In this document: piece after piece, positions 8,188 through 12,956 of the stretch
Numbering within the stretch: position 1 is the stretch's first letter
Layout: each line of letters opens with the position of its first letter
Assembly: GCA_029561455.1 (NCBI GenBank)
Contig: JAKQIY010000047.1
Span: 126,332 to 190,331, forward strand
Source of the DNA: a bacterium
Lineage (GTDB): Bacteria; Zhuqueibacterota; Zhuqueibacteria; Residuimicrobiales; Krinioviventaceae
DNA length: 64,000 nucleotides
Direction of reading: 5' to 3'
The notes under the pieces: generated by a model
Told to the model about the DNA's origin: nothing
Databases searched by the model: none
What the model saw: the letters and a program-made list of their open reading frames with translations, nothing else
Position numbers and translations under genes: made by a program

Positions 8188-8535
8188 TTAATTTAATGCA
8201 TACTCCCTGATGATTTGACACAAAGAATCGATCTGTTTTTTGGTTTTTTCAATTGCGAGCGACAGGTTTTTATTGGTAGTATCAATTTGCACATTTTCAT
8301 ATCTGTTAATATCAGGCGGATTCAGGTATTGAGCAATATCCTGTTGGGTTAATTCATTACCTTTTACCGCTTTACCGAATTCCAGCGCTTTTTCCAGGAT
8401 GAATTGATGCACCAGCATGATCTCGTGTGGTTTCAGATCATCGATCAACGGACTGACAAGCTTGCCATCAAATATACGTTTGATGATTTCCAGTTTCACT
8501 GAAGTGTTGAGTCCGGCTTTAACCGCAACGATCAT
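8188..8535 (-). CDS. Small protein of unknown function at the end of the PATAN operon
   Basis: Not recognised. The 115-residue protein is soluble, with no signal or membrane segment. A GGGGAG ribosome site precedes the ATG and it follows the GTPase-like gene by 18 bases, so it is very likely the last gene of that operon. Its last 40 residues (after YENVQIDTT) look like the closing strand-helix of P-loop kinases of the APS-kinase/AAA_33 type. There is no P-loop and the protein is too short for a whole kinase, so this resemblance is weak. It may be a helical adaptor. Confidence 0.55.
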   Translation of the reverse strand: MIVAVKAGLNTSVKLEIIKRIFDGKLVSPLIDDLKPHEIMLVHQFILEKALEFGKAVKGNELTQQDIAQYLNPPDINRYENVQIDTTNKNLSLAIEKTKKQIDSLCQIIREYALN

Positions 8536-8553
8536 AATGCTCCCCGGTAGTGG

Positions 8554-9063
8554 TTAATTAGCATAATTAATTGCTACATCAATTAGCGATGCAAAAACGG
8601 ATTTTATGCTTGCAACAGATTTGCTGTTGCAAAAAGTAAATTTTTCCTTGCCGGAAAATGAAATATAGGGATCGACAATTGTTTTTTTTATTGGCAAAGG
8701 CTTTTCTTTAATATCGGCGGCAATGATGAGGGGCGCTTCGAAACGGTGGCCGAGGAAATCGATATTTTTTTGGGCAATATCACATGAAGCTTCATCAAAC
8801 CAGTCAAAAACAATAATATACCCCAGCATTTTCCGGGCGATAATATCCCAGGCGATTTTATTATATGCGCCATTGGAACTGACGCCATATAAAAACAGTG
8901 ATAATTCCGGTTCAATTTTCAATTCACCAAAAATAATATCCTGATCCGATTTCATTACCCTGGGACAGGTGGAATACAGAAATGAATCATGTGATGAATT
9001 GGAGGAACCAATGACCAGAATTTCCCCAATTTTTTTTTCAGTATTTTGCATTAATTCAAACAT
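8554..9063 (-). CDS. Pseudo-GTPase: MglA/CvnD-like fold without nucleotide-binding motifs
   Basis: The 169-residue protein follows the pattern of the small bacterial GTPases often annotated ATP/GTP-binding protein (MglA/CvnD-like). It has a first strand EILVIG, then FGEL with LFLYG (switch/G3 region), IARKMLGYIIVFDW, and APLIIAAD (G4 strand). The motifs that bind nucleotide are gone: the P-loop GxxxxGKT reads GSSNSSHD, the G3 DxxGQ reads GVSSNG, and NKxD is absent. The same framework is seen in the C-terminal domain of the 10314-12140 product. It is 15 bases downstream of the second receiver-PATAN gene. A role as a non-catalytic partner is inferred. The start is either the ATG at 9063 or the one at 9051. 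Confidence 0.65.
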   Translation of the reverse strand: MFELMQNTEKKIGEILVIGSSNSSHDSFLYSTCPRVMKSDQDIIFGELKIEPELSLFLYGVSSNGAYNKIAWDIIARKMLGYIIVFDWFDEASCDIAQKNIDFLGHRFEAPLIIAADIKEKPLPIKKTIVDPYISFSGKEKFTFCNSKSVASIKSVFASLIDVAINYAN

Positions 9064-9078
9064 GAAGCCTGATTTTTT

Positions 9079-10296
9079 TTATTTTTTGCTAAAGAATTCT
9101 CTAACCCGTTTCAACTCCTGTTTTGACAAGAATACCCTGTAGGGTATCTTTTGCACGTGCGGCGACGGGTTGTTGTGAGGATCGCCTGCCTGATTATTTC
9201 GTTCTGCGACCGGCTGCGGGAGCCCGCCGGGGTCCTGATCTCTTTTAAAATATGAAGTGATCTGATTATAGGTAGATTCGCCGGATTCTTTTTTTTGTGC
9301 ATGGTCAAAAACGATCTGCGCAAAGGGGTCTTTAACCTGGTGCGGAGCAGCGCCTTTGATCAGCAAGCCTTTTTGCAACAGGGAGCGTACCAGTTCCAGG
9401 GCATGTAAATTATCCATCTTGCTTTCTTCAATGCCCTGCATTATGGTTTTCGGCTCGTAATAGCGATCCAGCATCTGTTTTTCCGGATGGCTGATCTGCT
9501 CGTCTTTAGCCGGGGTAATTGCTTTAAGCGATGTGTTAAGGGGCGGTAATAGCCGGGCCAAATCTTTCCATTGTTGTATCAGCCTGGTGCCTTTGGAAAG
9601 AATTTTACTGTTATTTTCATTGATCATCCTGGTGCGTTCGATCTGTTGAATGGATACCCAAAATGTGCCTTTGAGCCAGGTGAGCATGTGGGTTAAAGCC
9701 TGTTCCGGTTCAAAACCATCGATAAAGGCATCGATGATGCTACCGTTGTTTACAAATATCTGGCCTTCCATATAGCCGCGGGTCAGGTAAATTATGCCGG
9801 AGGTGCGGCTTAATTCCATGGTTTTGATCAGGTCGAGAACATTCATTTCTTCCAGATCGCCCTTGAAGCCATGATTTATGATCCAGCGGCTTTTTTCGGT
9901 ATTCCTGGTTTCATTCAACAGCGAATGTACCCGTACCACTACTTCTTCAGGGAAATAAGGTTTTTCAATATAATCATCGATACCCATTTCCATGCTTTTG
10001 ATCCTGTCTTCCAGTTTTGGTTCTTTGGTAGTAACAATAATGGGAATCTGGCTGGTAATGAAATTATTCTTTAAAAAGCGGAATAATTGAACGCCGCTGA
10101 TTACCGGCAGGTCCAGTTCGGTGATGATAACATGAGGCCGGTTAGCCTCGCAAAATTCGCAGGCTTTTTGTCCGTCTTCGATGTGCACGACTTCAAGATT
10201 GGTCTCGGCCAGGTTTTTAACCAACTGGTTCACTTCCGGGCCGGGGCTGTCGATCACCAAAACAACGTATTTATTTTTATTATTTGGACCTGGCAT
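9079..10296 (-). CDS. Receiver-PATAN (DUF4388) protein with Glu in place of the phospho-Asp
   Basis: The 405-residue protein has a receiver domain (about 10-130) and a PATAN/DUF4388 domain (about 144-220, with SRTSGIIYL and GQIFVNNGSIIDA), then a charged helical region and a Pro-rich tail. In the receiver, the conserved Lys (YIEKPY) and Thr (IPIIVTTK) are kept. The phospho-acceptor position is Glu60 (VIITELDLP) and only one of the paired acidic residues (Asp16) remains. Phosphotransfer is therefore unlikely; Glu may mimic the active state. PATAN domains are protein-interaction modules in gliding, polarity and development regulators. It lies 17 bases after the larger paralogue, with an AGGTG ribosome site. 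Confidence 0.8.
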   Translation of the reverse strand: MPGPNNKNKYVVLVIDSPGPEVNQLVKNLAETNLEVVHIEDGQKACEFCEANRPHVIITELDLPVISGVQLFRFLKNNFITSQIPIIVTTKEPKLEDRIKSMEMGIDDYIEKPYFPEEVVVRVHSLLNETRNTEKSRWIINHGFKGDLEEMNVLDLIKTMELSRTSGIIYLTRGYMEGQIFVNNGSIIDAFIDGFEPEQALTHMLTWLKGTFWVSIQQIERTRMINENNSKILSKGTRLIQQWKDLARLLPPLNTSLKAITPAKDEQISHPEKQMLDRYYEPKTIMQGIEESKMDNLHALELVRSLLQKGLLIKGAAPHQVKDPFAQIVFDHAQKKESGESTYNQITSYFKRDQDPGGLPQPVAERNNQAGDPHNNPSPHVQKIPYRVFLSKQELKRVREFFSKK

Positions 10297-10313
10297 AATA
10301 CACCTGCTTAAAG

Positions 10314-12140
10314 CTAGGCTTGTTTTTTATAATAATCCTTGAATAAAGAAAAGATCAACCGTCGTGAAGCGTTCTTGTCGAATTGGGAACACATCATAAT
10401 CTTTTCGTTTTTTTTCAAAGCCAGTTTGGCGCGGATTTCATCGATACCGGGGACATCCGGTCCGGTGGTTTTATTAATAATTACAATCAACGCGGGAACG
10501 TTCAGTTTTGAACGCAAGACATTCAACAGATATTGATAATAGCTCCAGTTAGCAGCTTTACATTCAACCAGCAGGATATAGCCCAGGGTTGTGGGAACAA
10601 AATAATCCAGCAACGGTGTAAATTCCTTTTCCATAGAAAAGGTGGTGATGTTTAAATAATGTTCACCTGTAAACCGGGCCGTACCAAAGTAGACCTCCGA
10701 AACATTGGCAACCGCTACCTGCGATTCAACCGGCTTGTTTGAGATCAGACAATCTACTATCTTTTTACGGGGAGATTGATCAGTGCCTAAAACCAGGATA
10801 TTGCCTTTTGCTTTGTAAAAAATGTCCGTTTGAAATTTTTCCCCGGCAGCGGACTGCTTTTGCGGCGCACCCTGTGGTTGGGTTTTGGTTACGGCATTGG
10901 GAAAAACTGTAGCCGCCGGCGGTGTTGGTTTGGGAGGCAGGGTTTGTATTTTTACTACCGGTGGTTTAACAACTATTGTTGAAGACTCTTTGGGTTGCGG
11001 TCTGGGTATGACTGGTTTGGGTTTATTAACCGGCGGGGGTTGGTAAAAATCAGTAACTTTGGCTTGCAGGGATTCAACATCCTGCTCTTTAATTATATCT
11101 TCGAAAAACGATTGCGTATTATTTTCACCGGTTACAGGCTCTGCATTACCGGTATCGGTAACCGGTATTTTAGGTTCTGCAACAGACGGTTTTTCTTTGA
11201 CAATGTTCAAAAAGCCCAGTTGGTTAAGTTGCAATATTTTTTTCAAAGTCTTTATTTCATCATCCTTGCTAGCCTGGATGATTTCTCCCAAAGTACGCTT
11301 ACCGTCGAATAATTCCAAAAAATATTGTAAATCACTATTCAGATCGTGCTTGGATATGATTTTATTAAAATTTGGGGTTGTAGTAATAACAACTTCGAGA
11401 GAAGGGAGTTTTTTTAACAAGTTTTCGCGTTGTTCCATTCTCATAGCTCCTTGCAATAGAATTGCCAGATTGCTGACCCGGGTTTCGTCAATTACATCGA
11501 TATCACAAAAGTGCATGGAAAATCTGCCTTTATTCCAGGTCATCATTTTAAAAACAGCCTCTTCCCCTTTGAGCGATAATGTATTGGCGCTGATAATGTT
11601 ACCATCTTCAAAAAAAATCTGCCCTGTAAAGCCATTTTCATTTAATAGCGTTAATATACCGGTCTTTTTTTCAATTCCAAAAACCTTGACAAGATCAAAT
11701 AAATTAATATCCTGTAATTTGCCGGAGAACTTTTTTTTGAGAATACTCGCTTCTGCCGATTTTCTCTCAATACGTGATAATAGCATATTAACACGCGCAA
11801 CCAGTTCTCTTATATGGATGGGTTTAACAATATAATCTTTGGCGCCGTTTTTTAAACATTTTACCCTGTTCCAGATATCGTTTTTTTGCGATATGACCAC
11901 AACAGGTATTTCTTTATTCAGTTTCAGCTTGTGGATAGCTTCCAGCAAACTATAACCATCAATACCGGTGGTTGATAGTTCGGTCAATACTACGTCAAAA
12001 GGTTTGGTTTGTATTAATTGCATAGCAACCGTATTGGTGCCGGCCAATTCTACCTTGTAACCGGAATCGGCAAAGTTGTTTTCCAAAACCTTTTGGTTTT
12101 TGGGGTCTTTGTCTATTATTAGTATTGAGCTGTTTTTCAT
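10314..12140 (-). CDS. Receiver-PATAN-(Pro-rich linker)-pseudo-GTPase fusion
   Basis: The 608-residue protein has four parts. A receiver (about 4-125) has Glu54 where the phospho-Asp should be (VVLTELSTTG) and Asp10-Lys11 in place of the acidic pair. A PATAN/DUF4388 domain (about 138-215) follows, with KTGILTLLNENG and GQIFFEDGNII, then a long Pro-rich linker (about 350-440). Last is a GTPase-like domain (about 445-605) with ILVLG, FGTARF, LGYILLVE and ALIVIINK. Its P-loop (GTDQSPRKK) lacks the GKS/T, and the NKxD motif is reduced to NKTT. It is the first gene of a four-gene unit starting after the terminator at 12231-12257. It probably integrates a signal by protein contact rather than phosphorylation or GTP turnover. 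No clear ribosome site was seen. Confidence 0.8.
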   Translation of the reverse strand: MKNSSILIIDKDPKNQKVLENNFADSGYKVELAGTNTVAMQLIQTKPFDVVLTELSTTGIDGYSLLEAIHKLKLNKEIPVVVISQKNDIWNRVKCLKNGAKDYIVKPIHIRELVARVNMLLSRIERKSAEASILKKKFSGKLQDINLFDLVKVFGIEKKTGILTLLNENGFTGQIFFEDGNIISANTLSLKGEEAVFKMMTWNKGRFSMHFCDIDVIDETRVSNLAILLQGAMRMEQRENLLKKLPSLEVVITTTPNFNKIISKHDLNSDLQYFLELFDGKRTLGEIIQASKDDEIKTLKKILQLNQLGFLNIVKEKPSVAEPKIPVTDTGNAEPVTGENNTQSFFEDIIKEQDVESLQAKVTDFYQPPPVNKPKPVIPRPQPKESSTIVVKPPVVKIQTLPPKPTPPAATVFPNAVTKTQPQGAPQKQSAAGEKFQTDIFYKAKGNILVLGTDQSPRKKIVDCLISNKPVESQVAVANVSEVYFGTARFTGEHYLNITTFSMEKEFTPLLDYFVPTTLGYILLVECKAANWSYYQYLLNVLRSKLNVPALIVIINKTTGPDVPGIDEIRAKLALKKNEKIMMCSQFDKNASRRLIFSLFKDYYKKQA

Positions 12141-12230
12141 TAATTTACGAATTTGTAATTGATTTCAAATTAAACAAAAATTTATTCAAAAAAACAGTGT
12201 ATGTCAAGGTATTTTTCAACGTATTTCAAG

Positions 12231-12281: not shown

Positions 12282-12956
12282 TTAACAGACAGTTTCATGT
12301 TTGCCCGGCAGGCATTTCTGAAATTGCCTGATAAATTTTTGTTTTTTATAGCTCTTTTCTTTCCTGATAAAATGCAAAAATTTGTTATTCAATTCATCAA
12401 TTCTAAAAAAGGGCAATTCAGCCGTGCCGTTACCTGATAATCCGGCGTTCTCAATTATACCGGGGATCGACAGTGTGTAATTGTCGAAATCCACCGGTTG
12501 TTTAGCATTAAAATACAGGCATACAGATTGTGAAGCCGGGTCGGCAATTACCCGTATACTAAAATCCGCTCCCGGTAAGATGTCGTCTCCCGCACCGGAA
12601 AAAGTGTTGGTAGCGGCGCTGTTTTCTGTAAGCAACATTTTCATTTGATACGCTTTAACATGAGCAATGATTTTTTCCTGCGCCGGAATGCAATGGAAAT
12701 ATCCCTTTTGTACCGGTAAGCAGGTTAGCCGACATGCTAGATCGAGTACTTTGCCGGAAACGGCAACCGGCAATTCCTTGACGGTAAACTCATAGATACC
12801 GTCCAGTGTATGTAATTTTTTGCGGCAATAAGGACATTGGTTTATATGCCCCGCCCTTTTTGCCCTGGAGTTATGGTCATTTGTATTGCTCAGGAAGTGT
12901 TGTTCCAGTTCCAGAGCGCCGGGGCATTGTTTGATAACAGTGTTTGTGTATGTCAT
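12282..12956 (-). CDS. Unknown protein with an HxxxCxxC (anti-sigma-like) zinc motif
   Basis: This 224-residue soluble protein is not recognised over its length. Near the N terminus it has HINQCPYC (about 37-44), the H-x3-C-x2-C spacing of zinc-binding anti-sigma (ZAS/zf-HC2) domains, preceded by a helix as in that family. No membrane segment follows. The C-terminal half (about 130-190) looks like a small beta-rich domain. It lies 69 bases after the 360-residue gene, and a terminator closes the pair. A soluble zinc-dependent regulator of the upstream product is a reasonable guess, no more. Confidence 0.55.
   Translation of the reverse strand: MTYTNTVIKQCPGALELEQHFLSNTNDHNSRAKRAGHINQCPYCRKKLHTLDGIYEFTVKELPVAVSGKVLDLACRLTCLPVQKGYFHCIPAQEKIIAHVKAYQMKMLLTENSAATNTFSGAGDDILPGADFSIRVIADPASQSVCLYFNAKQPVDFDNYTLSIPGIIENAGLSGNGTAELPFFRIDELNNKFLHFIRKEKSYKKQKFIRQFQKCLPGKHETVC

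Follow-up and report, generated by a model that had tools for sequence, protein, structure and literature searches.

Canonical receivers carry an aspartate at the phospho-acceptor position. In Asp-less receivers, the commonest substitute is glutamate (PMC4395418), which in some receivers may mimic phosphorylation when it occupies the phospho site (PMC4395418, PMC12632262), and a recent review describes the regulation of bacterial pseudo-receivers as a mystery (PMC12632262). One such pseudo-receiver, FrzS, is part of the MglA network (PMC11580455). Eukaryotic pseudo-GTPases have the G-domain fold, have lost nucleotide-binding residues and are kept for binding (PMC4080450, PMC5593906, PMC10731463); one of them, CENP-M, takes part in the assembly of a complex (PMC4080450). 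The PATAN regulators of cyanobacteria are linked to pilus motors, and PixE is thought to bind PilB1 (PMC7690835). Here, we describe an operon in which pseudo-receivers are paired with pseudo-GTPases over most of a phylum.

The operon lies in a 64,000-nucleotide stretch of a KSB1 (Zhuqueibacterota) genome (hereafter, the window) and comprises four ORFs, all on the minus strand. P4 (10314-12140; 608 aa) combines a receiver (residues 6-118, 11787-12125; Pfam, 1.2e-22), a PATAN/DUF4388 domain (residues 139-237, 11430-11726; Pfam, 9.5e-15), a Pro-rich linker recognised by its composition (residues 330-440, 10821-11153; 21 Pro in residues 321-446) and a pseudo-GTPase domain assigned by profile and fold (residues 446-608, 10317-10805). 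P3 (9079-10296; 405 aa) has a receiver (residues 12-123, 9928-10263; Pfam, 1.2e-16) and a PATAN/DUF4388 domain (residues 145-244, 9565-9864; Pfam, 2.5e-14). The two PATAN domains score 53.8 and 55.2 bits against a cut-off of 25 (PF14332) and are the only ones in the 5.85 Mb assembly that holds the window. P2 (8554-9063; 169 aa) is a free pseudo-GTPase, identified through its homologues, an AF2 model, Foldseek and structural alignment, and P1 (8188-8535; 115 aa) is a small protein placed by family alignment. The intergenic gaps are 17 (P4/P3), 15 (P3/P2) and 18 (P2/P1) bases. A first-pass annotation of this DNA had proposed four tightly spaced genes with gaps of 15-18 bases, two receiver-PATAN proteins and one G-like domain fused through a Pro-rich linker, all of which the ORF coordinates, Pfam and linker composition bear out.

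Upstream of P4 is a promoter-like site (TTGACA-17-TAAATT; 12179-12207, minus strand), which is weak since promoter-like sites across the region were no more frequent than in shuffles. A weak terminator-like hairpin with a T tail lies between P5 and P4 (12235-12256, minus strand); 15 terminator-like sites were observed vs 8.8 expected. Members of the P5 family (12282-12956, minus strand) match zf-HC2 in 10 of 21 cases, and P5 is possibly an anti-sigma-like protein. P6 (13026-14108, minus strand; 360 aa) shows 45-76% identity across the phylum and has an invariant core (KTKQELSRIF.ERDPEGAK), and it had no match in Pfam or PDB. At the other end of the operon, a four-Cys motif (C..YxCKGxxCI..NPxCAR) is found in most P1 relatives but not in the window P1 or its nearest relatives, and no solved relative of P1 was found.

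Homologues of P2 occur in 60 of the 82 KSB1 genomes, and the nearest relative in GTDB contigs, the one returned by a scan with a single protein, is 67% identical in P2 and belongs to a candidate division KSB1 genome. Around these homologues we found a recurring order, whole or in part, of NtrC-type regulator, P6, P5, P4, P3, P2, P1 and peptidase. P4, P3 and P2 are adjacent, on one strand and in the same order in all 51 loci that hold the three genes, with median gaps of 18 and 21 bases. This constancy of order and strand indicates that the operon is more than a chance arrangement. Sequence counts across the phylum are not independent events. P2 and P1 were not detected in four genomes that retain P4 and P3, and P1 was not detected in several families where another gene comes after P2. 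Eight of nine close pairs gave a dN/dS ratio of 0.02-0.18 for P2 (the ninth pair, with identical proteins, gave 0); for P4 and P3 the ratio was 0.06-0.22 wherever dS was finite. These low ratios demonstrate that the proteins are maintained by selection.

Both window receivers have glutamate in place of the phospho-acceptor aspartate, a point on which the first-pass annotation was silent. The substituted residues are Glu54 of P4 (11979-11981, minus strand), located by alignment to NtrC-type receivers that a neighbouring gene encodes, and Glu60 of P3 (10117-10119, minus strand), also placed by alignment. P4 and P3 are therefore Asp-less receivers (ALR/PsR) rather than canonical response regulators. 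The reference NtrC-type receivers have Asp in 25 of 25 cases. Glu was present in 46 of 52 P4 receivers in a first alignment, and with four later loci added the count became 47 Glu, eight Asp and one Ala (n = 56). Among 57 P3 receivers, 40 have Glu and eight have Asp, with Gly, Ala and others in the remainder. Lys-Pro is retained in 51 of 52 P4 receivers; across the operon receivers the first acidic residue and the Lys are mostly retained and the second acidic residue is mostly lost. Glu also occupies the phospho site in three of the five REC-PATAN proteins that we read outside the operon, so the substitution is not special to it.

The G-like domains were recognisable through family profiles and predicted structure. 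Single-sequence searches with P2 returned nothing in Pfam, NCBIfam or PDB, a plasmid search gave just three Streptomyces matches (E 3-6), and Pfam had no match in the C-terminal part of P4. In PDB, the profile of the 55 free copies matched Rab proteins (Rab3, at a best E of 3.8e-4), and the one built on 49 fused copies matched Sar1 and SRP receptor beta (E 2.7e-4 and 5.7e-4). The free and fused profiles align with each other at E 8e-19 (hhalign). For both, COG2229 GTPases of the phylum ranked first among non-operon GTPases, with E-values that come from a small set, and intact COG2229 GTPases scored above the Rup GTPase of the window genome, whose MglA was not reported in this comparison. These profile searches point to a relationship of both domains with the COG2229/CvnD branch of MglA-like small GTPases. 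In a tree, all free copies form one group and all fused copies another (modest support, 0.69 and 0.76), a split that is consistent with one duplication. Elsewhere in the phylum, one KSB1 genome (L139) encodes an intact COG2229 GTPase in the midst of several roadblock-like ORFs. A COG2229-like match was also seen in NZ_CP119142.1, a 2.17 Mb Neisseria gonorrhoeae record that is listed as a plasmid and may be mislabelled or contaminated.

AF2 models were built from an alignment of four sequences with no true GTPase among them, and had moderate confidence: pLDDT 69.9 and pTM 0.71 for P2, and pLDDT 75.5 and pTM 0.76 for the fused domain. Foldseek placed MglA first for P2 (3t1o; E 1.4e-7), with MglA and Rab proteins among the top matches, and Arf6 followed by MglA for the fused domain. 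Structural alignment gave Z 16.7 for P2 against Ras-like GTPases (Ras/Rab chains) and Z 15-17 for the fused domain against the Arf/MglA fold (Arf chains up to 17.1). Both G-like domains are thus predicted to adopt a Ras-like small GTPase fold, and with matches at Z 16-17 the models do not bear out the unrelated fold that would have refuted the first-pass annotation.

The strand landmarks that had been read from the window sequence (EILVIG/NILVLG, FGEL/FGTA and LGYIIVFD/LGYILLVE) are present in the two domains, and GK[ST], TPGQ/DxxG and [NT]KxD, which had been called missing, are absent from both. The P-loop position of the fused domain reads GTDQSPRK, and near its G4 position there is 'INKTT' alone. 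When aligned with COG2229, Thermus, Deinococcus and actinobacterial relatives, the domains share the strand pattern, and GK[ST], the switch I Thr and TPGQ are missing. The first-pass annotation had held that intact P-loops in relatives would point to local decay. On survey, the P-loop (GxxxxGK[ST], Walker A) was absent from all 55 free copies and from 48 of 51 fused copies, but was intact in three fused copies (L075, L084 and L138), all from classes other than that of the window. TPGQ occupies the G3 position in one fused relative (L049, genome G044). At G4, [NT]KxD is missing from every copy; one free copy has NKPD away from that site. Conservation among the free copies is lowest at the P-loop, switch II and G4 (0.31 vs about 0.50 for the rest; permutation p about 1e-4), and the near-invariant residues are Glu14, Tyr59-Gly60, Leu80-Gly81 and Trp88, with all 55 copies having a Glu where beta1 begins. 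The G-like domains are probably unable to bind GTP.

The intact P-loops are confined to a single clade, from other classes, in which the receiver Asp is retained as well. Six genomes with Asp in P4 form this clade (L068, L075, L084, L087, L091 and L138), each with a GK or GR relic of the P-loop in the fused domain. Loss of the Asp and loss of the P-loop largely go together, although not perfectly; a strict coupling is ruled out by two genomes of one genus in the window's order (G048 and G049), which have Asp in P4 without a P-loop. Since the losses map to few branches, the association does not represent many independent events.

Because the switch residues are lost yet the proteins are kept by selection, the operon probably signals by protein binding alone. 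We consider it probable that it is a signalling module derived from PATAN and small-GTPase systems, one that gave up control through GTP and phosphate and has come to act as a binding scaffold. The window copy could instead be a locally decayed version of a recently active ancestor, for which the three intact P-loops in other classes and the missing Cys motif of the window P1 might speak. However, the P-loop is lost in all same-class genomes, dN/dS is well below 1, the frames are open and the gene order is conserved; P-loop loss throughout the class under purifying selection indicates an ancient loss, and we rejected local decay, which is highly improbable given the phylum-wide conservation and low dN/dS. 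A stepwise history is conceivable, and we entertain it tentatively: in the clade that keeps the P-loop, the fused protein would still bind nucleotide and take phosphate, and the stripped form seen elsewhere would be a later step away from an active switch. The six genomes with both P4 Asp and a P-loop relic fit this history, as do the AGRR and AGRS P-loop intermediates of two same-class families, but even in these copies TPGQ, the Thr of switch I and [NT]KxD are missing. This alternative concerns history and is compatible with a scaffold in the window.

Two further alternatives assign the domains another activity. They might still switch, either with some non-GTP ligand or with a nucleotide that other residues hold. 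Some pseudoenzymes do keep ligand binding by way of other residues, and the invariant beta1 Glu together with the near-invariant Tyr59-Gly60 and Trp88 could mark a new site. However, sequence varies most in the very loops that would line the pocket (P-loop, switch II and G4), which is not what a conserved ligand site would show, and we regard this reading as improbable. It is likewise unlikely that the pseudo-G domains act as decoys, competing with real MglA for roadblock partners and so tuning MglA. On another contig, the window genome does encode an intact MglA (GPGLGGKTT, TIPGQ) and two adjacent roadblock-like ORFs, and the strands and helix that the pseudo-G family retains sit outside the pocket, yet the pseudo-G profiles are closest to COG2229 rather than to this MglA and their gene neighbours encode REC-PATAN, not roadblock, proteins. 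Indeed, Pfam found no roadblock match in the four genes or their neighbours (the one Robl_LC7 match of the genome is on another contig), and the operon is without the roadblock/MglB gene of an MglA-type module.

If the operon does act as a scaffold, its Glu receivers may be held in an active-like shape, so that they would be locked on. The free and fused pseudo-G domains would pair with each other, or with roadblock/MglA proteins, by way of the conserved strands beta1, beta3 and beta4 and helix 2, and PATAN would connect the module to an output machine. Control would then come through protein amount and binding, not through GTP or phosphate. Possible partners are the MglA and roadblock-like proteins of the genome and its PilB-like proteins, which were matched below the curated cut-off. 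The first-pass annotation had proposed an operon that works without phosphate or GTP switching, and this negative half is well supported by the Ras/MglA fold, the variable nucleotide loops and the mostly Asp-less receivers; its positive half, a scaffold or relay, or use of another ligand, is a reasonable though conjectural reading. On a broader scale, we see an even chance that both phosphorylation and GTP control have been largely abandoned within one phylum, with the inert proteins retained as a selected binding apparatus that includes a conserved family of small bacterial pseudo-GTPases. Since the old switch survives in part in some relatives, half-intact and stripped forms of one module can be compared to ask how a switch protein functions once its switch is gone.

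Among described systems, the operon shares features with several and differs from each. Its receivers resemble other ALR/PsR receivers in having Glu for Asp, but they are joined to PATAN and, in P4, also to a pseudo-GTPase. Cyanobacterial PATAN-REC regulators (PixE, PixG and LsiR) also pair PATAN with a receiver, but have no GTPase-like domain. Conversely, the eukaryotic pseudo-GTPases (CENP-M, p190RhoGAP domains and some septins) have no receiver or PATAN context. The Myxococcus polarity module (MglA, MglB, RomR and FrzS) likewise combines a small-GTPase fold with receiver proteins; its MglA hydrolyses GTP, and we found no pseudo-GTPase described in the cited literature on that module. With the COG2229/CvnD-type GTPases (conservon CvnD, and those of Thermus and Deinococcus), the G-like domains share the template FGxL..L.L.LYG..WD.L...LGxxVL.D and a Ras-like fold. 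Those GTPases keep GxxGxGKT, TTV and GTPGQ, whereas the operon copies have lost all three; the operon also differs in having no roadblock gene and in the fusion of its second G copy to REC-PATAN. Thermus plasmids carry DUF4388 and a COG2229 GTPase together, with a roadblock gene as well in one of two, and this grouping suggests that the operon module probably derives from such a system.
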